Shown here: in pieces, positions 32,707 through 55,233 of the stretch
Layout: each line of letters opens with the position of its first letter
Position numbering within the stretch: the stretch's first letter is position 1
Origin: Nitrospirota bacterium
Lineage (GTDB): Bacteria > Nitrospirota > Thermodesulfovibrionia > Thermodesulfovibrionales > Dissulfurispiraceae
NCBI GenBank assembly: GCA_009773415.1
Contig: WSNO01000011.1
Location: forward strand, 1 to 64,000
DNA: 64,000 nt
Reading direction: 5' to 3'
Translations under genes and position numbers: made by a program
Notes under the pieces: generated by a model
What the model was told of the DNA's origin: nothing
Databases searched by the model: none
What the model saw: only the letters and a program-made list of their open reading frames with translations

Positions 32707-34005
32707 TCAGGCAATCGTTTTGAACAGGTAGCCTGCGACGGCAGAGCCGATGATGACCGGAATCATCGGCCAGTGGCGATACTGCAGTCCATAAAACGTT
32801 ACGACAGATGCAACAAGCGCGTACCAGTCGAGCCCGCCCTTGTCAGGCACCAGCGCATGCCATGTAAACGTAACGCCGAGATTCAGGATAACGCCGACAA
32901 CAGCGGCAGTCACCGCGGCAAGTGCCGTCGAGAGCATGACGTTTTTTCTCAGGACTTCCATGTATGGGGCAAACAGGAGAATCATCAGAAATGAAGGGAC
33001 AAAGGTAACCCAAGTGGCGAGCAGCCCGCCGAGCAGTCCTGCCATCCCAGGAGACATTGTGCCGGGATTCAGGTATGCGGCAAGGTAGCCGACAAACTGG
33101 TTCACCATGATGAGCGGCCCCGGTGTTGTTTCGGCCAGCGCAAGGGCATCCATCATCTGCTCGGGCCGAAGCCAGCCGTATTGTTCGACTGCTGCCTGGC
33201 CAACGAAAGCGAGTACGGCGTATGCACCGCCGAAGGTGACCATGGCCGCCGTGCTGAACAGCAGTCCGAGATCAAGAAGAATGCCGGTCCCCTTCCAGAG
33301 TGAAACTGCTGCGAGCGGCGCTGCCCAGAGCGACAGCCAGAGTGAAAGCGTTGTGACGGCGGGTTTCCAGCCGGTTGAGCGTATCTGTGCGGCAAGTCCG
33401 CCGATAAGGGTGTCTGTTTCTGCCTGAGGGACGCCGGAACTTCCGAACAGCTGCGGAGAGACATGTCGTGCGCCGAACCCGAGGAGCGCTGCGCTGAACA
33501 CAATGAACGGAAACGGCACCGAAAACACAAATATCGCGATGAACGAGAGTGCCGCAAGCAGGACGAAAAACCAGTTCTTCAGAGCCTTTTTCGCAATCCT
33601 GAGCGTCGCTTCCGCGACAATTGCAACAACAGCTGGCTTCAGGCCATACAGCAGGGCGGCAACTGTCGGAACGGTACCCATCGCGGCATAGAGCCACGAA
33701 AGTCCGAGCAGGATGAAAACGGCAGGAAGCACAAAGAGCGTTCCGGCGACGATGCCTCCCCAGGTTTTATGGAGCAGCCAGCCTATATAGATGCAGAGCT
33801 GCTGCGCTTCCGGCCCCGGCAGGAGCATGCAGAAATTCAGTGCCTGCAGAAAGTGGTTTTCCGATATCCATTTCCTTTTTTCGACCAGTTCCTTATGGAG
33901 AATGGCTATCTGCCCGGTCGGTCCGCCGAAACTGATAAAGCCGAGCTTCAGCCACCAGAGAAATGCTTCACGGAATGTCGGCTTCTGCGTGATGTCTGTA
34001 CTCAT
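32707..34005 (-). CDS. chrA: Chromate transporter ChrA
   Basis: 432 residues with two homologous halves of the CHR family. The first half opens LWWLKLGFISFGGPTGQIAI with NFCMLLPGPEAQQLCIYIG; the second has MVTFGGAYAVLAFVGQAA and ALAETTPGPLIMVNQFVGY. About ten to twelve membrane helices. It extrudes chromate, a sulfate analogue that would enter through sulfate uptake, which is relevant in a sulfate reducer. It is last in an operon with chrB and a rhodanese gene. Confidence 0.93.
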   Translation of the reverse strand: MSTDITQKPTFREAFLWWLKLGFISFGGPTGQIAILHKELVEKRKWISENHFLQALNFCMLLPGPEAQQLCIYIGWLLHKTWGGIVAGTLFVLPAVFILLGLSWLYAAMGTVPTVAALLYGLKPAVVAIVAEATLRIAKKALKNWFFVLLAALSFIAIFVFSVPFPFIVFSAALLGFGARHVSPQLFGSSGVPQAETDTLIGGLAAQIRSTGWKPAVTTLSLWLSLWAAPLAAVSLWKGTGILLDLGLLFSTAAMVTFGGAYAVLAFVGQAAVEQYGWLRPEQMMDALALAETTPGPLIMVNQFVGYLAAYLNPGTMSPGMAGLLGGLLATWVTFVPSFLMILLFAPYMEVLRKNVMLSTALAAVTAAVVGVILNLGVTFTWHALVPDKGGLDWYALVASVVTFYGLQYRHWPMIPVIIGSAVAGYLFKTIA

Positions 34006-34017: not shown

Positions 34018-35007
34018 CTATGCTTTGCTCGCGTACAACAGTTCAAAGATCGCCATGCCTTTTTCGAGCGCTTCGGCGTCGCTCCGAGCAGTTTTTCGGA
34101 TGCCGGTGAGCAATTCTTCAATGCCGGACGCTTCCGGAACTTTGCAGCGCCCGTCCTTGATGTCCAGTTCATGTACGATCCCGGCTATCTTTCTGAGAGG
34201 ACGCTGCTTCAGTCCAAAGGACTTCATAAGGACTTCGAAGGTGCAGAGGTCGTTGTGATGAGTGAATTCCCCGCCGCTCATGTCGAACAGCACACTGCCC
34301 GGCGGAGGCGGTTTCTTTTCGTCCGCAATGAAGGAAAACCGGGCTTCAGAATCAATAAAGCGCCGTATGAGCCAGGCAGAGGCCATTCGATCGACAAATG
34401 GCTTGGTCCGTGTCACCCAGAGCCTGCGCTGATAGTCAGCAGGGTTTCTCAGTTCAATTCCGGGCGAATCGGCGGGAGCTTTGCCGTGAGAGGTTTCATC
34501 GAGTTTTTCGGCGAGTGCCTTCAGGCGCGCCTCATAGGCGGAACCCTGCTCGGAGCCGAAGAAATCGATTGCCGCGATGTCATTGACTGCTTTTTCGATC
34601 CTGCGGAACTCTGTCAGGAGCAATTCCGGGGTAATGACCTTTCCTCCCTTCTGTATGCCGGCGAGCTTCTGCTCCAGGGCATGGAGCCTTTTCCCCGTAT
34701 CTTCATAGGATCGGCAGCGCTCCGCATTGAAGAGAGGGACAATGTCATCATTGCCTATCGTCTCCATCTGAGCCGCTTTCACAAAGGCGGCATCTCCCCC
34801 CATGGCAATGACATCCGAAACAAGTGTTGTCAGCATCTCCTCGCGGCTTTCAGACCAGGGCAGAAGATACACTGCCCCCTTGAAGTGAAGCGCTCCTTCC
34901 TGCAAGAGCTTGCGCCATACTTTCATGCGCTTGCTTACCGGGCGCGACGGCGCCGAATAAAAAAAGATAAGCCATGGAACAGTAACGGTCCGTTTTTGAG
35001 CAGACAT
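34018..35007 (-). CDS. chrB: Chromate resistance protein ChrB
   Basis: 329 residues. An N-terminal helical region (WLIFFYSAPSRPVSKRMKVW, a ChrB N-terminal feature) is followed by a C-terminal ChrB domain (PF09828): LWVTRTKPFVDRMASAWLIR, then MSGGEFTHHNDLCTFEVLM and GLKQRPLRKIAGIVHELD. ChrB is a chromate-sensing regulator or reductase partner of ChrA. AAGGAG precedes ATG 35007. It lies 12 nt upstream of chrA. Confidence 0.88.
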   Translation of the reverse strand: MSAQKRTVTVPWLIFFYSAPSRPVSKRMKVWRKLLQEGALHFKGAVYLLPWSESREEMLTTLVSDVIAMGGDAAFVKAAQMETIGNDDIVPLFNAERCRSYEDTGKRLHALEQKLAGIQKGGKVITPELLLTEFRRIEKAVNDIAAIDFFGSEQGSAYEARLKALAEKLDETSHGKAPADSPGIELRNPADYQRRLWVTRTKPFVDRMASAWLIRRFIDSEARFSFIADEKKPPPPGSVLFDMSGGEFTHHNDLCTFEVLMKSFGLKQRPLRKIAGIVHELDIKDGRCKVPEASGIEELLTGIRKTARSDAEALEKGMAIFELLYASKA

Positions 35008-35039
35008 GCAACTCCTTTCCGCTTTCATGTGTGATGGAA

Positions 35040-35426: not shown

Positions 35427-36620
35427 TCATGATCCGAAGCGAAACCCGGCAAGAGCGTTTCTGCCCGCATGCATCAGAAAAGCCGATGCAGCAGCAGCAA
35501 GCACGACTGCCGCCATGAGAAACGCTGTTCCGAAGCCGTATTGCAGAATGACAAACCCTGCAATGAGCGGGCCCGCGGTGTGGCCGATATCCATTATGGA
35601 ACCCAACATTCCCATAGCCGAACCCCGTGTGTCCGTGCTGCTCAGATCGGCGATATGCGCCGAAGAGGCTGATGTCAATATCGACAGGCTCAGGCCAAGA
35701 AGAATGCTGAGCATGAACAGGCCGGGGAATGATGAGACCAGTGAAAAAAGCGCGATACATGCAGCTCCCAGCACGGCCCCCCAGAATATCTGGGGCGGCC
35801 TGCCATGACGATCAGAAAAGCGCCCCATGGCCGGCTTCGAGATCGCCAGCGTGATGACCTGCACAGAGAGCAGTACGCCGATCTCCACCGCGCTGATTCC
35901 CGACTGTATGGCATAGAGCGGGACAAAGGTCTCGAAAATCCCGTACACAAAAAGGATGCCTGCCTCAACGGCGCAGGTGAGAGCGATCGCCCTCGACGCA
36001 ACTACGGTTTTCAACGCGCTCCATGAAGCACGAAAGCTTCTGGACGGCAGTCGGCAGGCCTCTTCCTTCGGAATGCGAAGGGCAAGAAGCAATACGATGA
36101 GTCCAGCTGCGCCGCAGACGAGATAGACTGCCTGAAAGCGATGCGCTTCGCTCAGCATCATCAGACTGAACAGCAGGCCTCCGGCAACCGGCGCACAAAA
36201 ACGTCCGAGGAGCATAGCGGTCGAAAACCAGCCCAGCTTCTCCCCGCGCTCCTGATGAAACAGTTCGGAAACGAGCGCCATGCCGACCGGAAGAAAGACG
36301 GCTGTAGCGATGCCGTGGTAGAGGCGGACAATTGCAAGCTGCCATATTTGGGTCACCGCAAGATAGAGAAAGGGCGCTGTCGCAAAGACGACCGCCGCAC
36401 CCACCAGCATCTTCCGCCTGCCGCAATGGTCGGCAATAAAACCGGCGGGGATGCTTGCAACAATGCCGGCAAATGCCGAGACTGACGCAACGATGCCGAC
36501 TTCAGAGGGGTCGGCGCCGAGCCAGGCGGCAAAAATCGGCAGCACAGGACTCTTCGCGATCGTCGAACTGAAGATCGCAAAGAACCCGGTTATGCAGAGA
36601 AAACGGAACGGAGTCATCAT
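35427..36620 (-). CDS. MFS transporter
   Basis: 397 residues, twelve predicted membrane helices in two halves. It has the MFS loop signature AGFIADHCGRRKMLVG (first half) and its echo MGRFSDRHGRPPQIFWG (second half). Drug/metabolite:H+ antiporter type; the substrate cannot be assigned. It lies 94 nt upstream of the rhodanese-chrB-chrA genes on the same strand, so it may be part of that operon. Confidence 0.85.
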   Translation of the reverse strand: MMTPFRFLCITGFFAIFSSTIAKSPVLPIFAAWLGADPSEVGIVASVSAFAGIVASIPAGFIADHCGRRKMLVGAAVVFATAPFLYLAVTQIWQLAIVRLYHGIATAVFLPVGMALVSELFHQERGEKLGWFSTAMLLGRFCAPVAGGLLFSLMMLSEAHRFQAVYLVCGAAGLIVLLLALRIPKEEACRLPSRSFRASWSALKTVVASRAIALTCAVEAGILFVYGIFETFVPLYAIQSGISAVEIGVLLSVQVITLAISKPAMGRFSDRHGRPPQIFWGAVLGAACIALFSLVSSFPGLFMLSILLGLSLSILTSASSAHIADLSSTDTRGSAMGMLGSIMDIGHTAGPLIAGFVILQYGFGTAFLMAAVVLAAAASAFLMHAGRNALAGFRFGS

Positions 36621-36687: not shown

Positions 36688-37539
36688 TTACGCGTTGAGA
36701 GCGATGAGCGACTGAATCTCGCGGTGGTAGCCGAGATATCGCTCGTACGTCACCTGGTTTTTGTGGTATTTCTGCACGTCGCGGATGAACTCCTCGAAGC
36801 GGTCCTCCGCCTCACGCTCTGACCCGATCTGCACCACGCCGTCAGTGATGATGTCCACGAGCCGGTCGGCATAGATGATGATCTTCTCTTCCAGCGACGA
36901 GAGCGCATAATCCTTGACCGGCAGGTTCAGTTCATTCGCTTCCGCTTCGGTCATGCCGCCGCGGATATGTTTTTCCATGATGTCGGTGAGGGCCTTCGGC
37001 AGGCCGAGCGCAATGCCGAGTTCTGCCCCGATTTTGCCGTGATCCATCGCATGAGACTTCGCCTTGCCGAGGTCGTGGAAGAATGCCCCGCGTCCAACCA
37101 GCTCCATGTCGAGACGCACTCCGGTGCGCTGCGCAATCTCTATCGCTTTCCCGGCAACCTTCAGGCAGTGGGCGAGATCGGCGTCGGTCAGTCCGGCATT
37201 CTTCATGATGTCGATGTCGGCCTGCTGGACGGTGTAGTTCAGGGCGCTTCCTTTTTTGACGCCGAAATAGGTGAGGATGTCGCCGGTCATCTTCTCCACA
37301 TCGTGCTGCAGTTGTTCGAACTTGGCGGCGACGTCATCATGGATATGCTGAAGGTATTCGTTGAGACCTTCCCGTCCATACCGTTTTTCGATGCGCTGTC
37401 CGAAGACGAACGTGCGCGTGATGTCGTGACGCTCGGACTTGATCTTCGGATCGGCGTCGTCTATCCAGGTGTGGAGTTCGCGGTACTCTTTACCGGTGCG
37501 GAGCCGGCTGGTCGCAACATGTTTTTCGACGGGTGGCAT
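36688..37539 (-). CDS. HD-domain metal-dependent phosphohydrolase
   Basis: 283 residues. The C-terminal two-thirds is an HDIG-type HD domain: AHCLKVAGKAIEIA supplies the first His, VGRGAFFHDLGKAKSHAMDHG the HD pair, and EKIIIYADRLVDII the last Asp. The N-terminal 110 residues are helical and charged. HD hydrolases cleave phosphate esters of nucleotides; the substrate is unknown. AGGAGG precedes ATG 37539. It is divergent from rcnR. Confidence 0.8.
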   Translation of the reverse strand: MPPVEKHVATSRLRTGKEYRELHTWIDDADPKIKSERHDITRTFVFGQRIEKRYGREGLNEYLQHIHDDVAAKFEQLQHDVEKMTGDILTYFGVKKGSALNYTVQQADIDIMKNAGLTDADLAHCLKVAGKAIEIAQRTGVRLDMELVGRGAFFHDLGKAKSHAMDHGKIGAELGIALGLPKALTDIMEKHIRGGMTEAEANELNLPVKDYALSSLEEKIIIYADRLVDIITDGVVQIGSEREAEDRFEEFIRDVQKYHKNQVTYERYLGYHREIQSLIALNA

Positions 37540-37644
37540 GTTATCCTCCTGATGCACAAGAATGCGGCGAATGTATCGCCTGATTCAAATGTATCAGATG
37601 TTACATTTTCTGTCAAGTACTTTTTCAGATGGATTCAGACGCCC

Positions 37645-40765: not shown

Positions 40766-40858
40766 TCAGTCTTTCCATCGGGCAGTTCCGAGTCTCGTGC
40801 CGGTCTTTTGTTGATCCGGCAACAACACACACTATTATTTTTCATTTTGGAGGTTCCC

Positions 40859-42106
40859 ATGCGCAGTGCGCTCATGGCGGCTCTCCTGTTGTCAGCAGTG
40901 CTTTCGGCATCTGCCGCGCTGTCGCTGACTATGGAGCAGGCTGTCACATTGGGTCTTGAGAACAATATGGAGCTCAAGGCGAAACAGGCTGAACTCGGCA
41001 AAGCCGAGGCTGAGGTGATCGGTGCCGCTGAAATACCGAACCCCTCATTTCAATATGGATATGAATCGCTGAAAAACCGTGAATACGAAATTGATCGCTC
41101 CGAAACCTTCACGGTAAGCCAGTCTATCGATTTTCTTTGGAAGCGCGGCAAGCGGGTGGAAGCGGCAGAGAAAAGCCGGGAGGCTCGCGACCTGCTGCTG
41201 CGGCATGAAACATCCGGCGTCGCCGTCCAGATACGGCAAACCTACGGCAAGGTGTTGCTGCTGGAGGAAAACAGCCGCCAACTGTCGGAACTTGCGGCAT
41301 CGTTCTCCGAGGTCGTGCGTATTGTGCAGGCGCGAGTTGCTGAGGGGGATGCTGCAGAAGGCGAACTGCTCAAGCTCGGCGTTGAGCGGGGGAAATTGCA
41401 GCGTACCGTTGCGGCGGCAAAGGCGGAAGCCCTTTCAGAGCGGAGAAAGCTGGGGCTGCTTATCGTCAGGGATATCAATGAAGTCGTATTGACAGACTCG
41501 CTAACGTTTACACCTTTGCGAGCAGATGCGCGTCAGCTTCTCGAACAATCATGGGAGCATCGTTCGGATATCGTCGGCCAGTTGCGATTGACGGAGGCAG
41601 CTGCAGCCGCAGTGTCCGCAGCGAAGCGGGATGGTTTGCCGGCAATCGCGGTTGAGGCCGGGTATAAGCGTCAATCCGGCGGATTCAGCGGAATGATCTT
41701 TGGTGTATCCGTACCGCTTCCCTTCTGGAATCAGAACCGCAGTGCAATAGCCAAAGCCGAGGCGGGAAGAGAGCAGCAGCACCATGCGGCCCAGCTTGCC
41801 CGCAAGACTGCACAGATAGAAGTCCTGACTCAGTTCGACAAGGCTGCCGGCTTGTCTGAAAGAGTCGGAGAAATGCTCCGGCAGCTCGAATCCGCGCAGA
41901 CTGTTTCCCAGACTGTTTCCAGAGGCGCCCGGCTGGCATATGAGGAAGGCGCCAGCACCCTTATCGAACTTCTCGATGCCGTCCGGTTTGAGAAAGATCT
42001 GGTCATGGAATACAATTCGTCCCTGCACGAATACCGGTCGACGGTCTTTGACCTTGAGCGCACGGCAGGAAGTGTTCTGACAGTACGGGAGGAAAACAGA
42101 CAATGA
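40859..42106 (+). CDS. TolC-family outer-membrane factor of RND pump
   Basis: 415 residues. A signal peptide (MRSALMAALLLSAVLSASA) is followed by two OEP domains: LTMEQAVTLGLENNMELKAK and AKRDGLPAIAVEAGYKRQSG with long helices. CzcC/CusC type. It forms the outer-membrane channel for the adaptor and pump that follow. GGAGG precedes ATG 40859. It overlaps the adaptor gene by 4 nt (ATGA). Confidence 0.9.
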   Translation: MRSALMAALLLSAVLSASAALSLTMEQAVTLGLENNMELKAKQAELGKAEAEVIGAAEIPNPSFQYGYESLKNREYEIDRSETFTVSQSIDFLWKRGKRVEAAEKSREARDLLLRHETSGVAVQIRQTYGKVLLLEENSRQLSELAASFSEVVRIVQARVAEGDAAEGELLKLGVERGKLQRTVAAAKAEALSERRKLGLLIVRDINEVVLTDSLTFTPLRADARQLLEQSWEHRSDIVGQLRLTEAAAAAVSAAKRDGLPAIAVEAGYKRQSGGFSGMIFGVSVPLPFWNQNRSAIAKAEAGREQQHHAAQLARKTAQIEVLTQFDKAAGLSERVGEMLRQLESAQTVSQTVSRGARLAYEEGASTLIELLDAVRFEKDLVMEYNSSLHEYRSTVFDLERTAGSVLTVREENRQ

Positions 42107-43611: not shown

Positions 43612-43623
43612 CGGGAGGCTACG

Positions 43624-46600
43624 ATGCTTGATCGGTTAACGCAGATTTGTCTGGAAAAACGCCTCATAGTAGTTGCTGTCGCCGCTGTGCTGCTCGTGGT
43701 CGGATTGTTTGTCGGGGCAGGCATGAAGATAGATGTGTTTCCGGATCTCACTGCTCCTACCGTAACGATTATTACCGATGCTCACGGCATGGCGCCTGAG
43801 GAAGTAGAATCGCTCGTTTCGATTCCCATCGAGAGCGCCATAAATGGCGCCACCGGTGTTCGCCGTGTGCGATCATACTCCACGCACGGGACATCCACCG
43901 TCTATGTCGAGTTCGACTGGGGGACGGATATTTACCGGGCTCGCCAGGTAGTGAATGAAAAGCTTCAGTTGCTTTCCGGCACTCTCCCGCAGGATATGAT
44001 TCCGACGCTGACGCCGATTTCCTCCATCATGGGAGAGATGATGTATGTGGGGATCGGCAGCGACCGTCACAGCCTGATGGAAGTCAAAGAGACGGCAGAT
44101 TATGTCGTAAGAAAGCGATTGCTTTCAGTTCCGGGGGTGTCGCAGGTCGTGAGCGTCGGAGGAGAGCTGAAACAGTATCAGGTTCAGGTGGATCCCCACA
44201 AACTTCTTGCGTATGGAGTTTCGTTGAACGATGTCATTGCGGCAGTGAAAGGAAGCAATGAGAACTTTTCTGCAGGTGTCATGAAAAGTTCGGCTCAGGA
44301 ATATCTTATTCGGGGAGTCGGGCGAGTGCAATCTCCGGAAGACATTGGTGCAGCTTCCCTGACAGTTAGAGACGGCGTTCCGGTGCTGGTTCGGGATGTC
44401 GCCCGGATCGCAATCGCACCTGCATATCGCATCGGCGAAGCCACCATAGACGGGAAGAAAGCCGTTGTTCTGGCTGTGCTCAAGCATCCTGAGTCAAACA
44501 CGGTCGAATTAACGAAACGGATTGAAACCACCCTGGATGCGGTAACGAAGACTCTGCCTGAAGGAATGAAGCTTGATTCCACATTGTTCCGACAGGCGGA
44601 CTTCATTCAACGCTCCATTGACAATGTGAAGTGGGTCGTGCTTGAAGGAGGCATACTGGTTGTCGCCATCATAATGCTCTTTCTCGGCAACGTGCGGGCG
44701 ACGGTTATTTCGGTTGCGGCGATTCCGATGTCGCTTATCTTTGCGATATTCGTCCTGAAGTATTTCGACATCACCATCAACACGATGACACTCGGCGGCA
44801 TCGCCATCGCGGTCGGCATTATCGTCGATGATGCGATCATTTATGTCGAGAATGTCTGGCGACGGCTGCTCGAAAACCGCTCCCGTCCCGAAGAGCAGCG
44901 GCACCGGTCATTGAAGGTTATTTACGATGCCTCCCGTGAAATCCGGGGGCCGATTATCAATGCCACTCTCATCATTATTGTCGTCTTCATACCGTTCTTC
45001 TTTCTGAGCGGTATCGAGGGACGGCTTCTGAAGCCGCTCGGCGTCTCCTATATTGTCTCGATAGCGGCTTCGCTCATTGTGGCGCTTACGCTGACTCCCG
45101 CCATGTGCGCGTACCTGCTTCGTCGCGGGAAATTTCTCCAGGAACATGGAGACAGCAGACTGGTCGTCTGGCTGAAGAGGCGCTATCGTCCGACCCTGGA
45201 GTATGCGGTGAATCATCCGAAAAAGGTCATAGCAGGAGCGGCGATAGCTTTTGCGATTGCAATGCTGCCTTTGCTGTTTCTCGGGCGCTCATTTCTGCCT
45301 TCTTTCAATGAAGGATCGCTGACCGTCATGGTAGCGACGGCTCCCGGGACATCGCTTGAAAAATCGTCCCAGATAGGCGGCATGGTGGAGACGATACTTC
45401 TGCAACACCCGAATGTCATAAAAACCTCCCGCAAGACCGGACGAGGCGAGCTTGATGAGCACGGCAAACCGCCGAGCGCTTCGGAAATAGAAGCACGGCT
45501 TGATATGAAGGACCGGAAACTGGGCGATATCCTTGCGGAACTGCGCAAGGCTGTCGAGGTGGTTCCGGGCACGATTATCACATTCGGGCAGCCGATAGGC
45601 CACCGTATTGATCATATGCTGTCGGGCACCACAGCAAATATCGCGGTCAAGATATACGGGCCGGAGCTTTTTCGGCTCAGGGCTATTGCCGAGGATATAC
45701 GCCTCGAAATGAGCCGGGTGCACGGCATTGCGGATCTTTCGGTGGAACAGCAGGTGGATGTTTCCCAGGTGCGCATTGTCCCCCGCCGCTCCGAAATCGC
45801 GCGCCACGGCATGAGCATTACGCAGGTGGCTGAAGCGGCAGAAACTGCCATGACCGGCAAGATCGTGTCCAGAACTCTTGAAGGGGATCGGGGCTTCGAC
45901 ATCCTGGTGAAGTATGACGAAGGCATGCAGCGTGATTTTGACAGCATTCGGGCGACGCTGGTCGATACGCCGACCGGCGCAAAGGTGCCGCTGTCCGAAC
46001 TGGCCGAAGTGGTGTCCGGAAAGGGACCGAACGGCATCAACCGGGAAAATGTACAGCGCAAGATCGTGGTGCAAGCGAATGTTGCCGGACGGGATCTCCG
46101 TGGGGTATACGATGATGCGAGGAGCGGCATCGACAGGAACCTGAAACTTCCTCCCGGCTATTACATAGAATACGGGGGACAGTTTCAGAGCGAGGCAGAG
46201 GCGTCGCGGATGATAAGTATTCTGAGCATCCTGTCTCTTGCCGCCATACTGCTTATCCTCTACATGCAGTTCGGGTCATTCCGGAAGGCATCGCTTGTGA
46301 TGGTGAACCTGCCGCTCTCGATTATCGGCGGGGTTGCGATAATTCTCGTCACGGATCGGGTTATCAGCGTTGCATCGATTGTCGGGTTCATCACGCTCTT
46401 CGGTATAGCGACCCGGAACGGTATCCTCCTGGTCGCCCATTACCGGCATCTCATGGAGGAGGAAGGTCTCGGCCTCCGCGACGCGGTCGTGCGCGGATCG
46501 ATGGAGCGACTTCGCCCGGTCATCATGACAGCACTGGCAGCAGGTCTTGCTCTTCTGCCGGTTACCTTCGCAGCCGACAAGCCGGGCAACGAAATCCTTG

Positions 46601-46716
46601 CTCCGCTTGCGGCAGTTATTCTCGGCGGACTTCTCAGTTCGACCGCTTTGAACATGGTGGTATTGCCGTCACTCTACATGAAGTTCGGCATCAGCAAGAA
46701 GGAGGAGGAAAAGTGA
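43624..46716 (+). CDS. Heavy-metal RND efflux pump (CzcA/CusA family)
   Basis: 1030 residues with twelve helices and two large periplasmic loops. The N-terminus carries IDVFPDLTAPTVTIITDAHG. Helix 4 reads LGGIAIAVGIIVDDAIIYVE, closer to the CusA pattern (GGIAIAVG..VD..EN) than to the Zn/Co/Cd CzcA pattern (DFG..DG). The C-terminal half has FGIATRNGILLVAHYRHLME. It exports a metal ion by proton antiport; the helix-4 motif suggests Cu/Ag rather than Zn/Co, with moderate certainty. Third gene of the tripartite operon. Confidence 0.93.
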   Translation: MLDRLTQICLEKRLIVVAVAAVLLVVGLFVGAGMKIDVFPDLTAPTVTIITDAHGMAPEEVESLVSIPIESAINGATGVRRVRSYSTHGTSTVYVEFDWGTDIYRARQVVNEKLQLLSGTLPQDMIPTLTPISSIMGEMMYVGIGSDRHSLMEVKETADYVVRKRLLSVPGVSQVVSVGGELKQYQVQVDPHKLLAYGVSLNDVIAAVKGSNENFSAGVMKSSAQEYLIRGVGRVQSPEDIGAASLTVRDGVPVLVRDVARIAIAPAYRIGEATIDGKKAVVLAVLKHPESNTVELTKRIETTLDAVTKTLPEGMKLDSTLFRQADFIQRSIDNVKWVVLEGGILVVAIIMLFLGNVRATVISVAAIPMSLIFAIFVLKYFDITINTMTLGGIAIAVGIIVDDAIIYVENVWRRLLENRSRPEEQRHRSLKVIYDASREIRGPIINATLIIIVVFIPFFFLSGIEGRLLKPLGVSYIVSIAASLIVALTLTPAMCAYLLRRGKFLQEHGDSRLVVWLKRRYRPTLEYAVNHPKKVIAGAAIAFAIAMLPLLFLGRSFLPSFNEGSLTVMVATAPGTSLEKSSQIGGMVETILLQHPNVIKTSRKTGRGELDEHGKPPSASEIEARLDMKDRKLGDILAELRKAVEVVPGTIITFGQPIGHRIDHMLSGTTANIAVKIYGPELFRLRAIAEDIRLEMSRVHGIADLSVEQQVDVSQVRIVPRRSEIARHGMSITQVAEAAETAMTGKIVSRTLEGDRGFDILVKYDEGMQRDFDSIRATLVDTPTGAKVPLSELAEVVSGKGPNGINRENVQRKIVVQANVAGRDLRGVYDDARSGIDRNLKLPPGYYIEYGGQFQSEAEASRMISILSILSLAAILLILYMQFGSFRKASLVMVNLPLSIIGGVAIILVTDRVISVASIVGFITLFGIATRNGILLVAHYRHLMEEEGLGLRDAVVRGSMERLRPVIMTALAAGLALLPVTFAADKPGNEILAPLAAVILGGLLSSTALNMVVLPSLYMKFGISKKEEEK

Positions 46717-46859
46717 AAAAATCATTGTGTTCATGGGCAATGAAGGATCTTCCCGTGCGTTCACCGTCATATCGCAAAGGTATTGCTAAACTTGAGGTAT
46801 TTGTGAACGACCGAAAACAATAAAAGAACGATTTGATAAAAAGAAAGGAGGTGAACAGC

Positions 46860-47099
46860 ATGAAGCGTATGACCACGATGTTAGTTGCAGCGATTCTCAC
46901 GCTTGCGGTTGCATCTGCCGGCTTTGCGGGAGCCCCTTTAAAGGGAGTAGCGTCCAAGATTGACGGCGACACCATTATCGTGAAGACTGTTGATGGAAAG
47001 GAGATATCAGGAAAAGGTGATACCAAGACCATCAGGATCGGCGATAAGGTTTATGTCCACGACGGCAACGTGAAGAAAAAGAGAACGACGGAGCAATAG
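46860..47099 (+). CDS. Small exported protein after RND operon
   Basis: 79 residues. A signal peptide (MKRMTTMLVAAILTLAVASAGFA) is followed by a mature part of about 55 residues forming a small beta domain: GVASKIDGDTIIVKTVDGKE and TIRIGDKVYVHDGNVKKKR. AAAGGAGGTGAAC precedes ATG 46860. No family is recognised; the IDGDTIIV...IRIGDKV pattern resembles small OB/SH3-like beta barrels. It lies 143 nt after the pump gene. Confidence 0.7.
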   Translation: MKRMTTMLVAAILTLAVASAGFAGAPLKGVASKIDGDTIIVKTVDGKEISGKGDTKTIRIGDKVYVHDGNVKKKRTTEQ

Positions 47100-47110
47100 A
47101 AAACTTTTTT

Positions 47111-47138
47111 GAGGGGGGGGAACGCCCCCCTCTCCTCT
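47111..47138. repeat. G/C-run hairpin between convergent genes
   Basis: A run of about eight G and a run of six C form a GAGGGGGG/CCCCCCTC stem around GAACG between the small exported protein and the CorC-like gene. There is no T-tract on either strand, so it is only possibly a terminator. Confidence 0.4.
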
Positions 47139-47155
47139 ATCCGGCGCACAAAAAA

Positions 47156-48448
47156 TCATTCCGAAGACCGCGTTACCAGCACCTTGTCGACTCTTCTGCC
47201 GTCCATATCAATGACTTCTATTCTCAGGCCGCGCCATTCGAAGTGCTGCCCCTCTGAAGGGATGGCGCCGATCTTTGCCATGGCGAATCCGCCGACCGTG
47301 TTCATGCCGCTTCGCTCTTCATCAGCTATGCCGCCCACTTCAAGGTAGTCCGTGAATTCATCAAGCGGCAGACTGCCGGAAATGAGCAGCGAGCCGTCTT
47401 CGCGCTCGACAATCTCTTTTTCGCCCTCAACAGCGTCCTCGACATCTTCAAAGACCGAACGGAGGATGTCTCCGAACGTCACCAGTCCCTGAACGGAGCC
47501 GTATTCGTCAATTACCAAAGCAATATGCGTTCCTGACTTCTTGAAGAGTTCCAGCACCTTGATTGCCGGTGTTGTCTCCGATACAAAAAGAGGCTTGCGA
47601 AGAATGGCAAGCAGATCAAACGGCTTTTCCTCCAGAATGCGGGCGAGCAATTCTTTGCCGGCAGCAAGTCCGACAATATGGTCGAGTCTGTCCCGCGCAA
47701 CAGGGAAGACCGAATGCTGATGTTCGGCAATCGACCGCTTTGTTTCCGCTTCGTCCGCACTCAGGTCGAGCCAGACAATGTCAGTCCGGGGAGTCATGAG
47801 AACGGTAACGCGCCGGTCAGCCAGGCGGAATACCCGCTCTATCATATCCTGCTCAAACTCATGGAACGTGCCGGCCTGAGTCCCCTGGTCGATAAGCAGC
47901 TTTATCTCCTCCTCGGTTACCGCCGGTTCATCAGACGGCTTCACGCGGAGCACACGAAGCAGCACATTGGTTGAAGCACTCAATACAACCACCAGCGGGT
48001 GCGCAAGCCGGGACAGCTTTCGGATCGGCGGGGCAACGAGACGTGCAAGCCGTTCAGGATTGTTCAGTGCCAGACGCTTGGGAACGAGTTCCCCGATAAT
48101 GAGCGAAAGATAGGTTATGCCGACGACAACGACTCCGACGCTGATCGTCAGGCTATACGGAGCGAGCGGGGGGAGAGTATCCAGCACCGGCGCCAGAAGA
48201 CCGGCAATGGTGGCGCCGCCGTAAGCGCCTGCAAGAATGCCGATAAAGGTAATGCCGATCTGGACGGTCGATAAAAAGCTGCCGGGATTGTTGGCAAGCT
48301 CCAGTGCAACTCCGGCTTTTGCATCCCCTTCTTTCGACCACTGCTCAAGCCGTGCTTTTCGCGATGAGACAATGGCAAGTTCAGAAAGAGCAAACACGCC
48401 GTTTAAAACTATCAAAAAAATTATGACTGAAAGCTCAAGCCAGATCAT
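47156..48448 (-). CDS. CorC/CNNM (hemolysin-C) family membrane protein
   Basis: 430 residues. An N-terminal CNNM/DUF21 membrane domain (residues 1-190; LSVIIFLIVLNGVFALSELA, ALELANNPGSFLSTVQIGIT) is followed by two CBS domains (about 205-330; VLMTPRTDIVWLDL ... HIALVIDEYGSVQGLVTFGD) and a CorC_HlyC C-terminal domain (about 345-425; GGFAMAKIGAIPSEGQ). Implicated in Mg2+/Co2+ transport or efflux. It lies 140 nt after terC on the same strand; an AAGGAGG sequence sits about 14 nt before the ATG. Confidence 0.9.
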   Translation of the reverse strand: MIWLELSVIIFLIVLNGVFALSELAIVSSRKARLEQWSKEGDAKAGVALELANNPGSFLSTVQIGITFIGILAGAYGGATIAGLLAPVLDTLPPLAPYSLTISVGVVVVGITYLSLIIGELVPKRLALNNPERLARLVAPPIRKLSRLAHPLVVVLSASTNVLLRVLRVKPSDEPAVTEEEIKLLIDQGTQAGTFHEFEQDMIERVFRLADRRVTVLMTPRTDIVWLDLSADEAETKRSIAEHQHSVFPVARDRLDHIVGLAAGKELLARILEEKPFDLLAILRKPLFVSETTPAIKVLELFKKSGTHIALVIDEYGSVQGLVTFGDILRSVFEDVEDAVEGEKEIVEREDGSLLISGSLPLDEFTDYLEVGGIADEERSGMNTVGGFAMAKIGAIPSEGQHFEWRGLRIEVIDMDGRRVDKVLVTRSSE

Positions 48449-48588: not shown

Positions 48589-49308
48589 TCAGCCGGATTT
48601 TTTAGCTTTCCGTGTGGCTGCGAGGATGTTCATCGTCTCTACGAAGCCCGAAAAACCCATCGCAAAATAGAGATACCCCTTTGGAATTTTGAGATCAAAC
48701 CCTTCCGCAATGAGCGTCACGCCTATCATGAGAAGAAAACTGAGTGCGAGCACTTTGAGCGACGGATGCTTGTCGATGAATGCGCTTATGGCATGCGAAG
48801 CGAACAGCATCATAATCATGGCAATGACGACGGCGGCAACCATGACGCCCACTTGCTGCGCCATGCCGATGGCAGTAATAACCGAGTCGAGCGAAAAAAC
48901 GATGTCTAAGATAAGTATCTGGAAAATGACAGCGCCAAATGCGGCAAGCACCTTTGGTTTCCGTTCATCGGCCTTTATTTCCATGATTCCGTGGATTTCA
49001 TGCGTTGCCTTGTATAGAAGGAAGATGCCGCCAATTATGAGAACGAGATCCCGCATGGAAAAATCAGTTCCAAAGAGGCTGAAAAGCGTCTTCGTAAGAC
49101 TGGCGAGCCAGACCAGGCTGAGGAGAAAGAGAATGCGTGTAATGATGGCGAGGCTTATGCCGATTTGCCGCGCCTTGTATTGCTGATACGCGGGAAGTCT
49201 GCTGGTGAGGATCGAAATGACAACAATGTTGTCTATACCGAGAATGATTTCCAGTACGGTCAGGGTAATGAGCGCTGTCCAGACGTTCACATCAAAAATC
49301 CATTCCAC
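48589..49308 (-). CDS. TerC family membrane protein (Mn exporter)
   Basis: 239 residues, about seven helices. The TerC blocks are LEIILGIDNIVVISILTSRL (acidic residues in helix 1) and ILILDIVFSLDSVITAIGMA (helix 5). TerC/MeeF-type proteins export Mn2+. Start: AAGGAGG lies just upstream of a GTG at 49308; the in-frame TTG at 49332 precedes that site and is rejected. It lies downstream of the UPF0016 gene in one operon with a manganese riboswitch, which strongly supports Mn export. Confidence 0.9.
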   Translation of the reverse strand: MEWIFDVNVWTALITLTVLEIILGIDNIVVISILTSRLPAYQQYKARQIGISLAIITRILFLLSLVWLASLTKTLFSLFGTDFSMRDLVLIIGGIFLLYKATHEIHGIMEIKADERKPKVLAAFGAVIFQILILDIVFSLDSVITAIGMAQQVGVMVAAVVIAMIMMLFASHAISAFIDKHPSLKVLALSFLLMIGVTLIAEGFDLKIPKGYLYFAMGFSGFVETMNILAATRKAKKSG

Positions 49309-49343
49309 AGGAGCCTCCTTAATAAAAGTCAAAAAGAGAACAT

Positions 49344-50024
49344 CTACGACGGTTTAATCCCCTCAAGGGCAGCCAATCTGGATTTCTGGTTCATTCGCAC
49401 GATCAGTCCGATTACGCCCGCGAGCGCAGCAAACGCCCCGATAACAATAGGGGGCTGCCAGAATGCACGCGGCGTCGAATCCCAGAGGCTGTATGCGCCG
49501 AACACAATAAACGTTAGAGCCGCAAACCAGGTGACGGCTTTTTCCGGCAGACGTCGCCCTGCAAGGTTCCCGACAGCGATGCCGATGGCATTGGCGATCA
49601 CCATGCCGACGGTTGTTCCGAGCCAGACAGGGATGATTTCATTGTACCGCGCAGCAAGTACCACCGTCGCGAGTTGTGTCTTGTCGCCGCATTCTGCAAT
49701 AAAAAAAGCGATTGCAACGATCCAGAACGGGCTGCGGCCCGATGTGTCTGTCTTGCAGGAAAGGGTGTCTCCGCGGATTGTCCAGAGCCCGAAAATGATG
49801 AATGAGACTGCAGCTGTGATGTTGATGTAGTGCATGGGAATGAAGGTCGTCAACAGGCTGCCTGCAAGGACGGCAAGAAGATGATTTGCGGCAGTTGCCA
49901 CAAAAACCGCCCACATGACGGTCTGCCAACGATAACGGGCTGCGAAACACATGGCGAGCAACTGGGTCTTGTCGAACATCTCGGCAAGCACTACAAAGAG
50001 CATTGAGCCGATAAATACCGTCAT
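49344..50024 (-). CDS. UPF0016/TMEM165 (GDT1, MneA-type) Mn exporter
   Basis: 226 residues built of two repeats, each with the signature E-x-G-D/F-D-K-T. The first copy is VLAEMFDKTQLLAMCFAARY, the second IAECGDKTQLATVVLAARYN. These acidic motifs bind the transported cation. Family members move Mn2+ (MneA) or Ca2+/Mn2+ (TMEM165). It is the first gene downstream of a yybP-ykoY riboswitch, with terC following, so Mn2+ export is well supported. AAGGAAAGGA precedes ATG. Confidence 0.92.
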   Translation of the reverse strand: MTVFIGSMLFVVLAEMFDKTQLLAMCFAARYRWQTVMWAVFVATAANHLLAVLAGSLLTTFIPMHYINITAAVSFIIFGLWTIRGDTLSCKTDTSGRSPFWIVAIAFFIAECGDKTQLATVVLAARYNEIIPVWLGTTVGMVIANAIGIAVGNLAGRRLPEKAVTWFAALTFIVFGAYSLWDSTPRAFWQPPIVIGAFAALAGVIGLIVRMNQKSRLAALEGIKPS

Positions 50025-50233: not shown

Positions 50234-53200
50234 TCAGCAGCAAAAGGTTCTGACACCCACGGCATCTTCAATCGTCAATGACCTGAAGCGCGTGACAGAA
50301 TCAGCCTTCGTCCATAATCCGACATGCCCCTCTACGAAGGAATCTGCTGTGTATTCAATCAGCGGTACATCATCAATCAGGCATTGAATTTTTGCGTGCT
50401 CTATCATGACTTTTAGCCGATACCAGACATGAGAGGCGATTTTGGTATGCACGCTCTTGCGCTGAATACGTTTGTTATTAACGAATTCGAACAATATTGC
50501 ATTATCTTCAAGCGCATTTATTCTGAACACGAAATAGTTGGCAACGTTCCGAAGGCCAAACGCGATGCCGCCTGCGCGATCGATACTGCCGCTTTCCAGG
50601 TGCATATCTGCCAGAACAATTCCGTTACCGACCATTTCGCTGTTCTTGGCTATAGCAAGAGGGAAATAGTAATATGCGCCGATCGTATCGAGAAATTCCT
50701 GGTATGAGCTGCCGAATGCTTTGCCGACGATGTCTGATAACGCGCCGGACATCGGCCCCCTCCACTGAAGTCCGTCCTGCAAGAGGTGAAGGGCATCACC
50801 GTCGGCGTCGCATCGCCAGTGTCCGCAATGAAGATAGAAGGAAGTAGGCTGTTCCGGGGTTCTCGGACGAAGAAAGTCATAGTCGCCGGAGAAAAAAGCC
50901 TCTGTGAGTGTCTCCACGTCATTCTGATTAGATAACGCCATATCGAGCAGGCGGCTGGTTGCGAGAAGCCTGCCGAGCTGATCCAATGCTTCGAGCGTGG
51001 TCGCTCGGTCATGACGGTTGAACGATGCTTCCAGCAAATCCCCTTTCATATTAACCTGAAACCCGAGTCGTTCAAGAACCGCCCCCAAAAATCTTACACG
51101 GAGTGACCGGCCGAAATAGGTTCCGACACCGCCGGCAAATTGGAGTGACACATAATTGTGATTCGGATCGTTATCACAGAATGCGTCAATCGTCGCAAAA
51201 TGATAACCGAATTTTGCGCTGAAATTCATGTAGTCCCGCGACAGCAGCGCATAACTGTCTCCACCTGGCGTTGGCCCAAACTCCGAGGTAACCATTGATG
51301 CCATAAGGGTCATGAAGCTGCGAGCATCAAAATTCACCGTTCCGGCCCAACTGATGCCCGGCTGCGTAAAGCCCTTCCAGATGGCTCTCATCGGGTGTGA
51401 TGTTATTTCGTTCGGCGTGACGGCATCGCAGGTCGAGAGCCCCTCTTTCAGTCCACCGCCGAGGTCGATAGCATAGACCACCAGCGGAATGTGGGACACA
51501 ATTTTTACTGCTGCTTCCGCACCTTCGGCATCCGTTGAAATGCCAAACATTTGACGCATGGCGTGCTCATGGCAGAAACGGATGACATCATGAAACGATC
51601 TGCACTCCTCAATACTAAAAGACGGATCCTCGGGATTAGTTAGGCTGAGCGGGGATATCTTGTCCAAGATGGTCCTCAGTTTGCGGTGTATCGGACTGTC
51701 GATGATCAGTTTTTTTGAGGGGCGCATCCGGCTGACGAGCTGATCGACGATACCGCGATACGCAGCAGTCTGTGACTCTGCGGACATGGTGATAACATCT
51801 CCATCTGTCAGTATTCTTGTTGCATTCCCCGCATTGACAATTGCCGGCACGCCGAACTCACGGGCTACAGACGAGAGATGACTCGTAATACTGCCGACAT
51901 CCGTAATGAGGCCGTTGATGCGTCCAATCACCTCTGCATAGGAGGGTGAGGCAGTATGGGTAACGAGAATGGCATTGTCAGGGATTGGGGACAGTTTCTT
52001 TTCGTCTTTTGCAATAAAAACCATACCCGATGCTATTCCGTATGACGCAGACTCGCCTGCAGTAAGTATGTTCTCGTAACCGGACAGGTCTTCAGCCGGC
52101 ATTTCGGGAACTTTTGGCGCCACATGCAACGGGCGCGTCTGGAGCAGAAACAGCCGATTGTCAGCGTCTAGTGCCCATTCAATATCCTGTGGCGTCCGAT
52201 AATATTCCTCAATCCGCACTCCGAAGGCACATAACGTTCGAAGTGCCTCATCTGGCAGTGAAGAGTTCATTTGCTTGTCCGGTCCTGTCTTTTCCAGTCG
52301 AACACCGCCTTCTGCAAGCGTTACCAGCATCCCGGTTTTATTGGCTATATGCCGTTCGGTTATTTCACCGGTCTCCTTTTTGACGACGAAGGTATCCGGG
52401 GAAGCATTGCCGCTGACGAGCTGTTCTCCGAGACCCCAGAGCGAACTGACTTTAACGGTTGCCGGATCCATGGTGGCCGGATCTACCGTATACATGACCC
52501 CGCTTGCCTGCGCATCCACCATGCACAGTCCTATCATGCACATGGGAGTAGCGTCATCTTCAACGCCGAGCAGTTGTCGGTACGCAATCGCCCGCGGAGA
52601 ATACTTGCTCGCAACGACTCGTCTGAATGCGTCGAGGAGATCTGCTCGCGTGACATTCAGTACGGTCGCATACTGCCCCGCAAACGATGCCTCAGTATCC
52701 TCGCCGACGGCACTGCTTCTGAGGGCTATCCGGACTTTCTTATGTGTCTTTGTCTCGAGCAACTCATACGCCTCAATAATGACGGCTGCAATTTCCGGAG
52801 GCACTTCTGCGTCGAGCACCATCTGCCGGATAGCGGCGCAGCCTGTCTCCAGTCGGGCAATATCCTCCATAGATAATCGTGCGAGCTGCTCCCGAATCAT
52901 CCCGGTAAGACTGCTCTGCTCAAGAAAACGGGTGGTCGCTTCCGCAGTAATGACGAAGCCGTCCGGAACGGGGAGTTTCAGGCTGTTTTTCATCACGGCA
53001 AGGTTCACCGCCTTTGCACCTGCAATCCGCTGCATGTCGTGGCCGACTCGCTCGAGCGGGAGAACCATATCTCCTGATAAGCTGACCGGCTGAAATTCCA
53101 TTTCTTTCGAAATGTCGGCATCAATCCCCTTGCAGATGTCAGCCAGGCGCGCAAAAAGACCTCCAGAAAGAGTATTGAGCGATTTTGCAAGGCCAAGGAC

Positions 53201-53416
53201 ATGTTCGTACAGACGTTCATAGTGTTGCTTTACTGCTACCGCGTCAAATGGCCGACCGCTGAAGTAAAGCTGCTCCATTTCAGCCAAAAGGCGAAGTGCT
53301 TCACGATTATGATTGAGAAGGGTTCTGAAGTGCTGATATTTGACCTGATGCTTTCCATTGGAGACGGACAGAGGAGAACAGGTTTTCCCAAAAGAAAAAA
53401 GATCGAAAAAGCTCAT
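50234..53416 (-). CDS. PEP-utiliser protein with C-terminal LamG-like domain
   Basis: 1060 residues. After a helical N-terminus (1-110) comes a PPDK/PpsA-type ATP-grasp domain (about 120-430; PVPDGFVITAEAT, IALRSSAVGEDTEASFAGQY with Arg233, DIEWALDADNRLFLLQTRPL). A phosphohistidine swivel domain follows (about 450-560; GSITSHLSSVAREFGVPAIV, His513). The PEP/pyruvate TIM barrel is absent. In its place lies an unassigned region (about 570-850; RDYMNFSAKFGYHFATIDAF) and a beta-rich LamG/glycosidase-16-like domain (about 905-1050; GIAFGLRNVANYFVFRINAL, HVWYRLKVMIEHAKIQCLID). It may phosphorylate a non-pyruvate substrate. It overlaps the upstream phosphatase-like gene by 4 nt. Confidence 0.8.
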   Translation of the reverse strand: MSFFDLFSFGKTCSPLSVSNGKHQVKYQHFRTLLNHNREALRLLAEMEQLYFSGRPFDAVAVKQHYERLYEHVLGLAKSLNTLSGGLFARLADICKGIDADISKEMEFQPVSLSGDMVLPLERVGHDMQRIAGAKAVNLAVMKNSLKLPVPDGFVITAEATTRFLEQSSLTGMIREQLARLSMEDIARLETGCAAIRQMVLDAEVPPEIAAVIIEAYELLETKTHKKVRIALRSSAVGEDTEASFAGQYATVLNVTRADLLDAFRRVVASKYSPRAIAYRQLLGVEDDATPMCMIGLCMVDAQASGVMYTVDPATMDPATVKVSSLWGLGEQLVSGNASPDTFVVKKETGEITERHIANKTGMLVTLAEGGVRLEKTGPDKQMNSSLPDEALRTLCAFGVRIEEYYRTPQDIEWALDADNRLFLLQTRPLHVAPKVPEMPAEDLSGYENILTAGESASYGIASGMVFIAKDEKKLSPIPDNAILVTHTASPSYAEVIGRINGLITDVGSITSHLSSVAREFGVPAIVNAGNATRILTDGDVITMSAESQTAAYRGIVDQLVSRMRPSKKLIIDSPIHRKLRTILDKISPLSLTNPEDPSFSIEECRSFHDVIRFCHEHAMRQMFGISTDAEGAEAAVKIVSHIPLVVYAIDLGGGLKEGLSTCDAVTPNEITSHPMRAIWKGFTQPGISWAGTVNFDARSFMTLMASMVTSEFGPTPGGDSYALLSRDYMNFSAKFGYHFATIDAFCDNDPNHNYVSLQFAGGVGTYFGRSLRVRFLGAVLERLGFQVNMKGDLLEASFNRHDRATTLEALDQLGRLLATSRLLDMALSNQNDVETLTEAFFSGDYDFLRPRTPEQPTSFYLHCGHWRCDADGDALHLLQDGLQWRGPMSGALSDIVGKAFGSSYQEFLDTIGAYYYFPLAIAKNSEMVGNGIVLADMHLESGSIDRAGGIAFGLRNVANYFVFRINALEDNAILFEFVNNKRIQRKSVHTKIASHVWYRLKVMIEHAKIQCLIDDVPLIEYTADSFVEGHVGLWTKADSVTRFRSLTIEDAVGVRTFCC

Positions 53417-54099
53417 TGGCTACCTCCTATATATGATAGAAGCCGGCTTTTCATGTTGTTACGAAGGGTTCGGGTCCTCTCTGTATCACCGACGCCAAAG
53501 AAAGAACTTGTCATCGGATCTTCAAACGGCATATGCTCCCGCATGCCCTCACCGGGGAATGCCGTGCAGAAAGCGTCCGCATCCGAGCAAAGTGAAATGA
53601 TGAGATCAAAATGACATCCGAGAAAAAGCTCAATATGCTTAGACTGCTTCCCGCCGGCATCGATGCCAATCTCCCGTAGGACTTTCACCACGGGCTTCCA
53701 GATCTGCATCGGCATGATCCCACCTGAAAAAGCTGCCCATGTATTGCCAAGCGCATGGTTGACGAGCGCTTCAGCCATCTGGGAGCGGACCGCGTTGCCC
53801 GAACAGACAAACAGAACGGTTTTGCGCCCGAGCGCCCGGGCAAGATGCCATCGGATTATTTCCATGTCAGGGATGTCGGGGACTGCTCTGCAGACCGGGC
53901 AGGGCGCGACATCTTTTTTTGGAAGACATGAGCAGACAGGCGCACCGTCGATGAGCAGCGCCGGGCATCGACAGGACCCGTCCTCCCGGAGAACGATTGC
54001 GTCGGACCGCACGCCAAGAGCTGTCATGGCTGAGGAAGCATTGCGCTGAAGCCCCTGTGCGGCGGGGCAGTCCGGACGGGAGACAAGCTGAATATCCAT
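53413..54099 (-). CDS. LMW phosphatase/ArsC-like protein with extra N-terminal domain
   Basis: 228 residues. Residues 90-225 are the low-molecular-weight phosphotyrosine phosphatase/arsenate reductase fold: the P-loop VLFVCSGNAVRSQMAEAL (C-x5-R) and an MPFEDPMTSSFFG general-acid region. Residues 1-75 form an additional Cys-rich part with a thioredoxin-like start (VSRPDCPAAQG, then CRCPALLIDGAPVCSC and CPVC). In arsenate reductases the P-loop Cys attacks arsenate; a dephosphorylating role is equally possible. It is translationally coupled (ATGA) to the PEP-utiliser gene. TATAAT lies 6 nt before the ATG and there is no ribosome site. Confidence 0.75.
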   Translation of the reverse strand: MDIQLVSRPDCPAAQGLQRNASSAMTALGVRSDAIVLREDGSCRCPALLIDGAPVCSCLPKKDVAPCPVCRAVPDIPDMEIIRWHLARALGRKTVLFVCSGNAVRSQMAEALVNHALGNTWAAFSGGIMPMQIWKPVVKVLREIGIDAGGKQSKHIELFLGCHFDLIISLCSDADAFCTAFPGEGMREHMPFEDPMTSSFFGVGDTERTRTLRNNMKSRLLSYIGGSQ

Positions 54100-54303: not shown

Positions 54304-55233
54304 TCAGATGTTTTCATCAAAGAAGTCGGCATCGATCTTTTTTACGGGATACAACGAAACTATTGATACGCCAATATCATTTTCTATCATCAGATTGGTG
54401 AGTTGCTCTCCATCAATCAGGACGATTTTGCTTCCAATTTGAGAAACATAACTTCGGGCATCCTCAGTGAATCGGGAGGTCGTGATGAATATGCCCTTGT
54501 TTGCTTTCTGTGCCTGCAGCGCACCTGCAAACTGCATGACATCCGGGCGTCCGACGGAATTATTTTCCCATCGCTTCGCCTGAATATAGACGACATCAAG
54601 CCCAAGCTTATCTTCCTTGATAATTCCATCAATACCGCCGTCTCCGCTTCTCCCGATCGCTTTTCCTGCATCGGCGCGCGATCCTCCGTACCCCATCTTT
54701 ACAAGAAGCTCGACAACAAGGCGTTCGAAAAAGGATGGCGACGATTTTTTCAGCCGGGCAAGAAGCTCGTCTGCCAGCTCCTCGCGCAGATTCTCGTAGG
54801 CAGCTTCCAATGTTTCTGACGGGGTCGCTGTCGAAATGTCCGGTGTGCTGTCTGAGGCAGATGCTTTCTCACTGCTCCGTGTTCCTTTGAGCTGCTCAAA
54901 TTCAAGAAATTCAGGGTATTGCCTGAGAAGTTTCACAGTAATCGCTTTGGGCTGCTGCTTGAGGAGTTCTTTTCCGCGTGATGTGATTTGATAGTGGCCT
55001 CTCCGGGTAGATTCGAGCAGCCCGGCTTTCTTCATGTACGTAGACGCCCAGCCAACCCTGTTAACAAAAGCAGACTGAATGCCGCTTGGGAGCATTTCTT
55101 TCAAATCTGCGTTTGTCAGTGCTAAGCGCGCAGCCAGAACTTCTACGGCTTCGCCAGTGGATAGTTCGCCTTGTTTTTCTCCGGCAAAGCGGAGAAGAGG
55201 CAGCATCAAGCTCTGGTAATCAGGAACAGCCAT
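54304..55233 (-). CDS. mrr: Mrr-type restriction endonuclease
   Basis: 309 residues. An N-terminal winged-helix Mrr_N domain (1-95; MAVPDYQSLMLPLLRFAGEK and GHYQITSRGKELL) is followed by a C-terminal Mrr_cat PD-(D/E)xK domain (about 165-295). The latter has FFERLVVELLVKMGYGG, SGDGGIDGII with the catalytic Asp, and VVYIQAKRW with the Q-x-K. Mrr cuts methylated DNA (type IV). GGGAG precedes ATG. It stands alone, with no modification genes. The 200 nt on its left (54100-54303) hold no convincing gene. Confidence 0.93.
   Translation of the reverse strand: MAVPDYQSLMLPLLRFAGEKQGELSTGEAVEVLAARLALTNADLKEMLPSGIQSAFVNRVGWASTYMKKAGLLESTRRGHYQITSRGKELLKQQPKAITVKLLRQYPEFLEFEQLKGTRSSEKASASDSTPDISTATPSETLEAAYENLREELADELLARLKKSSPSFFERLVVELLVKMGYGGSRADAGKAIGRSGDGGIDGIIKEDKLGLDVVYIQAKRWENNSVGRPDVMQFAGALQAQKANKGIFITTSRFTEDARSYVSQIGSKIVLIDGEQLTNLMIENDIGVSIVSLYPVKKIDADFFDENI

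Follow-up and report, generated by a model that had tools for sequence, protein, structure and literature searches.

We describe a pair of genes in a 64,000-nucleotide stretch of DNA from a Nitrospirota bacterium (contig WSNO01000011.1, positions 1 to 64,000, assembly GCA_009773415.1; the window) and propose, with the chances evenly balanced, that the pair is a metal-oxyanion (chromate/arsenate) tolerance module of dsr-bearing bacteria, built on a dikinase-type phosphotransferase. It consists of two minus-strand open reading frames (ORFs) with an ATGA overlap: a gene for a 228-amino-acid (aa) protein at 53413-54099 is transcribed first and a gene for a 1060-aa protein, the dikinase, at 50234-53416 second. 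The strongest contextual signal comes from chromate/arsenate resistance genes; an antibiotic or a glycan as the substrate would fit such surroundings poorly. Our analysis shows the domain make-up, the conserved catalytic residues, the missing barrel, the gene linkage and the fusion, and from the sequences and models we infer the dikinase chemistry, the role in chromate/arsenate tolerance and the transfer of phosphate to a small acceptor. Apparently, the dikinase belongs to a widespread and undescribed subfamily in an oxyanion-resistance context, and it is neither ordinary nor an artefact. The parts of the pair are the following.

50234..53416, minus strand: long-form dikinase-like protein, 1060 aa (ORF)
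53072..53416, minus strand: N-terminal region, residues 1-115, common to long and short forms (alignment)
52103..53026, minus strand: ATP-grasp domain (PPDK_N), residues 131-438 (PF01326, 2e-87)
51776..51985, minus strand: phosphohistidine swivel domain (PEP-utilizers), residues 478-547 (PF00391, 1.5e-19)
51878..51880, minus strand: His513 codon, predicted phospho-acceptor (His in 72/72; aligned in PEP-synthase alignments)
50882..51724, minus strand: alpha+beta middle domain, residues 565-845, in the position of the PEP/pyruvate barrel (AlphaFold model)
51566..51592, minus strand: HDxxRxxHE motif of the middle domain (residues 609-617), a candidate acceptor or active site (conservation)
50237..50881, minus strand: CBM66/LamG-type jelly roll, residues 846-1060 (AlphaFold, Foldseek, profile)
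53413..54099, minus strand: DF/thioredoxin-like plus ArsC-type protein, 228 aa (LMWPc, 8e-13; ArsC profile)
53830..54099, minus strand: divergent DF-family thioredoxin-like domain, residues 1-90 of the 228-aa protein (NF049942 in homologues)
53803..53805, minus strand: Cys99 codon, C-x5-R loop, equivalent of ArsC Cys10 (alignment)
53587..53589, minus strand: Cys171 codon, equivalent of ArsC Cys82 (invariant in 11 homologues)
53566-53568, minus strand: Cys178 codon (invariant in 11 homologues)

A dikinase without the pyruvate barrel

Homologues of 1040-1100 aa occur at 79 loci in Nitrospirota, Desulfobacterota and Rhodocyclaceae, and residue conservation was scored over 72 full-length or near-full-length long forms. 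The nucleotide and phosphohistidine half of the dikinase looks catalytically intact, because K135, R233, D411, E413, Q426 and R428 of the ATP-grasp domain and H513 of the phosphohistidine domain are invariant in 72/72 homologues. An earlier note, made from the sequence alone, had proposed that both domains are kept, and the Pfam matches and the conserved residues bear it out. A pair of this type converts ATP to AMP and Pi and leaves a phosphohistidine.

The same note held that the phosphoenolpyruvate (PEP)/pyruvate barrel had been replaced, and this also stands. The barrel family PF02896 has no Pfam match in the 1060-aa protein, in comparison with a score of 1.4e-77 for the true PPDK that lies beside the long form in locus L034, and the alignment to solved PEP synthases extends only through residue 568. 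Additionally, the middle domain, as modeled by AlphaFold from the 72 homologues, is an antiparallel sheet with helices and not an eightfold beta/alpha barrel. On these three observations we reject a divergent PEP barrel, which the note had named as the outcome that would overturn its proposal. The protein also missed the NCBIfam cut-offs for PEP synthase (353 of 598 and 344 of 740 bits) and for rifampin phosphotransferase (NF041857, 254 of 999 bits). It therefore belongs to the PEP-synthase/dikinase kind and yet is not a PEP synthase, since the barrel that defines such an enzyme was looked for and not found. With PEP synthase and PPDK it shares the ATP-grasp (PPDK_N) domain followed by the phosphohistidine domain, with the catalytic residues kept; it differs from them by the lack of PF02896 and by the alpha+beta domain, the jelly roll and the extra N-terminal region. 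Three Nitrospirota genomes (L034, L061, L080) have a true PPDK gene no further than three genes from the long dikinase; a link of the two was considered and dropped, being found at these 3 loci only.

The middle domain resisted classification. Pfam assigned no family to residues 565-890, nor to residues 1-115; the profile of the domain found no relative among the sequences of the PDB (best E 0.13), Foldseek gave no match at E<=0.001, and the best VIA-align hits were unrelated small proteins (Z 6.4). The predicted local distance difference test score (pLDDT) of the model is 72 overall and 80-98 in the core, a moderate confidence, and hence we do not claim a new fold. Conservation is strict all the same: H609, D610, R613, H616, E617, Y738, H739, R773, D793 and D825 are invariant in 72/72, and the first five are also present in two aligned short forms.

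Rifampin phosphotransferase RPH is a case of dikinase chemistry re-targeted by a swap of the acceptor domain; its His domain is C-terminal, its rifampin-binding domain lies in the middle, it has no jelly roll and its context is antibiotic resistance (PMC4844700). Unlike in RPH, His513 here is mid-protein, ahead of the alpha+beta domain. By analogy with RPH, the middle domain would be in the place expected of an acceptor domain. Phenylphosphate/phenylphosphoamidate synthase is likewise a PEP-synthase-derived phosphotransferase with a new acceptor, but it is split over subunits, acts on phenol or aniline and has another gene context (PMC7500099).

The C-terminal domain was modeled with a pLDDT of 88. 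Foldseek places it closest to CBM66, a levanase module (E 3e-11, template modeling score ~0.84 over the module), which its sequence profile also matches (E 2e-7); Pfam gave LamG-like matches at 980-1050, all of them sub-threshold. The LamG-like label of the earlier note is thus correct at the level of the modeled fold, a ConA-like jelly roll resembling a carbohydrate-binding module, and sugar binding is putative. One could argue that the enzyme is a glycan dikinase like plant alpha-glucan, water dikinase, in which the CBM66-like domain binds a polysaccharide and the His domain phosphorylates it. The kinship of the jelly roll with a levanase module speaks for this idea, and plant GWD/PWD, which act on starch, offer a precedent for a dikinase with a carbohydrate-binding module. 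However, the plant enzymes have the reverse domain order and modules of other families, glycan-metabolism genes do not recur beside our dikinase, where metal and oxyanion genes do, and the jelly roll is absent from the short paralogues. We consider a glycan dikinase highly improbable.

Nitrospira-type genomes (L179-L189, L191, L196-L198) encode free-standing LamG-like proteins of ~240 aa related to this jelly roll, and some of these adjoin RND efflux genes. As a chromate marker the free-standing LamG was dropped, as in these genomes it is mostly not near chrA.

The ArsC-like partner and its coupling to the dikinase

The 228-aa protein matches Pfam LMWPc (8e-13). A profile of 11 homologues ranks ArsC structures at the top (B. 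subtilis, E 6e-30), and classical low-molecular-weight (LMW) phosphotyrosine phosphatases follow mostly at 1e-5 or weaker. The ArsC triad recurs, with its spacing of 72, 7 and 23 residues, in the C99-x5-R105 loop, C171, C178 and D194-P195; C171 and C178, 7 residues apart, are invariant in the 11 homologues and their region aligns to the LCsDADxxC stretch of ArsC. The loop cysteine is lost only in L132, where the dikinase is broken too. The NCBIfam cut-off for ArsC was missed (TIGR02691, 77.9 vs 174.3 bits). At the N-terminus, NF049942 (DF-family (seleno)protein domain) scores above cut-off in the homologues L061 and L092; the protein of the window itself gives no match. Of the claim of a C-x5-R phosphatase/arsenate reductase, the loop and the LMWPc fold remain, and a phosphatase became less likely than a triple-cysteine ArsC of the thioredoxin type; the Cys-rich extra N-terminal domain is indeed an extra domain, corrected here to a divergent thioredoxin-like one of the DF family. 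Judged from these residues, the partner is most likely a thiol-dependent reductase rather than a phosphatase. It shares with thioredoxin-coupled ArsC (pI258/B. subtilis) the fold, the C-x5-R loop, the second and third cysteines, the DP motif and the spacing, and differs in its added DF domain, its position outside a recognisable ars operon and its coupling or fusion to a dikinase.

The idea that this protein and the dikinase form a real functional unit is supported by 15 adjacent loci, one natural fusion and one co-decayed pair. Neighbours were counted by a six-frame hidden Markov model search of 82 long-form loci, which superseded an ORF-based count (35 Chr, 13 ArsC) in which ArsC genes had been masked by antisense ORFs of great length. 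The ArsC-like gene lies directly upstream of the dikinase on the same strand in 15/82 loci, so the two are neighbours in other genomes, contrary to what would have refuted the earlier note. The ATGA overlap, whose coordinates we confirmed, is identical in the window, in five Rhodocyclaceae loci and in L132; the remaining pairs are mostly at most ~16 bases apart (46 bases in L063). In L131, from the metagenome-assembled genome of Rhodocyclaceae isolate fen_1000, ArsC and dikinase form one ORF of 1247 aa (5754-9497) with no N inside; its ArsC cysteines are intact, and a ChrA-like match lies 2 kb downstream. In L132 (3785-7438) the dikinase has lost 80 residues to a deletion and is frameshifted, and Tyr stands in place of the loop Cys of ArsC; by their sequences, the two genes have decayed together.

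Such tight pairing and the fusion would also suit a kinase/phosphatase cycle, in which the C-x5-R protein strips off phosphate that the dikinase has placed on a protein, on a small molecule or on itself. The LMWPc fold agrees with it, and in 4 other loci the gene immediately downstream of the dikinase is PP2C-like. However, the partner retains Cys171 and Cys178, and second and third cysteines are required for the thiol relay of ArsC and are not a feature of LMW phosphatases. Its homologues bear a thioredoxin-like domain, a thioredoxin-reductase-like gene follows the ArsC-dikinase pair in L102, and the ArsC-like gene is missing from most long-form loci. The partner has the redox cysteine triad of a thioredoxin-coupled ArsC at matching distances; we therefore do not put the earlier proposal of a phosphatase opposing the kinase first, and we regard the cycle as unlikely.

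The ArsC-like genes of L102 and L105 do not encode the thioredoxin-like domain. In these two loci, and also in L063, the gene ahead of the ArsC-like one encodes a flavoprotein of 640-650 aa resembling NuoF/GltD; still further upstream, L063 has iron-sulfur protein and PhsA-like molybdoenzyme genes.

Chromate and oxyanion genes beside the dikinase

Long dikinases lie within 9 kb of chrA and/or chrB in 45/82 loci, a context that the earlier note had not picked up; the identity of chrA and chrB was confirmed by Pfam on example loci. Over the same distance, genes of the MFS family occur in 41/82 and an HD-domain gene in 34/82, and either chrA/chrB or the ArsC-like partner is carried by 59/82. Among the loci of the short paralogue, which served as a control, chrA, chrB, MFS, HD and ArsC were found in 0/22 (Fisher p 8e-7 for chr). 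The association is scattered on the tree, with 16 changes for the chr linkage and 7 for that of ArsC. In L190 (2381-13365), genes for ChrB, ChrA, dikinase, PP2C, DUF2148, MFS, two ABC proteins and a free-standing LamG follow one another on one strand; L050 also has the ABC pair and LamG, and L192 has them together with ChrB. The window has the ChrB-ChrA core of known chromate-resistance clusters as well.

32707..34005, minus strand: ChrA chromate efflux transporter (PF02417, 6e-78; TIGR00937 above cut-off)
34018..35028, minus strand: ChrB chromate regulator (PF09828, 2.5e-45; PF20229)
35427..36620, minus strand: MFS transporter of the chromate-cluster type; the MFS gene adjoining the dikinase elsewhere belongs to this family too
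36688..37557, minus strand: HD-domain protein of the chromate-cluster type (PF01966), same family as the HD gene adjoining the dikinase elsewhere
48589..49332, minus strand: TerC-family metal transporter (PF03741)
49344..50024, minus strand: GDT1 cation/proton antiporter (PF01169), downstream of the dikinase

The chrA-chrB-MFS-HD set (32.7-37.6 kb) is on the same strand as the dikinase and downstream of it. ChrA/ChrB and ArsC-like modules co-occur in 2 loci. Because two oxyanion modules share one dikinase and are rarely together, the sequences suggest a function common to oxyanion stress and not a chemistry specific to one metal. We found no paper that connects ChrA/ChrB to LamG or to any protein resembling PEP synthase, and in the literature searched a dikinase is not described as a component of ChrA/ChrB clusters.

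In the mechanism that we propose, the ATP-grasp domain would phosphorylate His513 with the beta-phosphate of ATP, releasing AMP and Pi, and the swivelling His domain would pass this phosphate on to an acceptor bound in the middle domain with its HDxxRxxHE motif, the CBM66-like jelly roll docking the enzyme to a ligand. One dikinase would serve two alternative detoxification partners: the exporter and regulator ChrA/ChrB, or a thioredoxin-type ArsC-like oxyanion reductase that brings its own thioredoxin-like domain. Known bacterial chromate and arsenate resistance works by efflux, reduction and repair. It is a tentative idea, held with less than even confidence, that in sulfur-metabolising bacteria a dikinase with a new acceptor domain, working with an ArsC-type reductase and in one case fused to it, adds an enzymatic branch to the tolerance of toxic oxyanions, with a phosphotransfer absent from these known routes. 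If true, a conserved ATP-to-AMP phosphotransferase in chromate/arsenate resistance clusters adds a further chemical step, and the invariant HDxxRxxHE domain gives the PEP-synthase superfamily a new acceptor module; antibiotics, phenol or starch are the substrates of its other re-targeted members. With a recurrent operon and a natural fusion at hand, the system is directly testable. More speculatively, oxyanions drive futile cycling of ATP sulfurylase to AMP and pyrophosphate in sulfate reducers, where an AMP-linked dikinase could matter.

Several facts weigh against the oxyanion-tolerance reading. The chr genes of the window are 13 kb off and not adjacent to the dikinase, and 23/82 loci carry neither partner, several of them on short contigs. 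The long-form loci are related, so that their counts are not independent events, and many contigs are short. The short-form control was drawn from one order only. chrA is common in general (32/60 relatives), while its adjacency is not. The ArsC-like gene lies outside any recognisable ars operon, and another LMWPc/ArsC-type gene exists elsewhere in the same genome. Finally, the short paralogues' tie to two-component systems makes signalling a real alternative.

These paralogues, of ~850 aa and without jelly roll, are widespread in the order (L052 (G000:C46), L141-L160). Within six genes of them a receiver-domain gene and a histidine-kinase-like gene are each found in 17/22 loci, and it is possible from this context that the short form is a signalling dikinase; CBS and UspA genes sometimes accompany it. 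If the long form were a signalling device as well, phospho-His513 would act as a regulatory signal to two-component or other partners and no free acceptor would exist. A histidine kinase is nearby in 11 long-form loci. However, most long forms have no receiver partner, and they possess a large, strongly conserved domain, with the invariant HDxxRxxHE, in the position of the acceptor domain of known dikinases. We find a signalling role of the long form rather improbable.

Origin of the dikinase and surroundings of the pair

On the tree, the dikinase of the window sits with copies from Rhodocyclaceae (67% identity, support 100), though its host is on the Nitrospirota side, with closest relatives recorded as Thermodesulfovibrionales/Nitrospirae. 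In the congener G001 (L039/L091) the order dikinase-GDT1-TerC is preserved; the dikinases of the two are 47.5% identical, GDT1 and TerC 84-89%. Horizontal transfer of the dikinase, in one direction or the other, has occurred.

The window carries dsrA at 8953-10128 (TIGR02064 match), and its host probably reduces (or oxidises) sulfur compounds dissimilatorily. The ORFs that follow dsrA on the plus strand (8842-21366) read like dsrB, dsrC and dsrMKJOP. Confinement of the dikinase to dsr-bearing genomes was considered as a discriminator and rejected, as nearly all relatives have dsrA (58/60 with a match).

Between the chromate cluster and the dikinase, at 37978-48448, a NicO/RcnA-like exporter, an RND efflux operon and a CNNM transporter make up a metal-resistance stretch. 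On the other side, a gene for a Mrr-type restriction endonuclease (54304-55233, minus strand) lies directly upstream of the pair.

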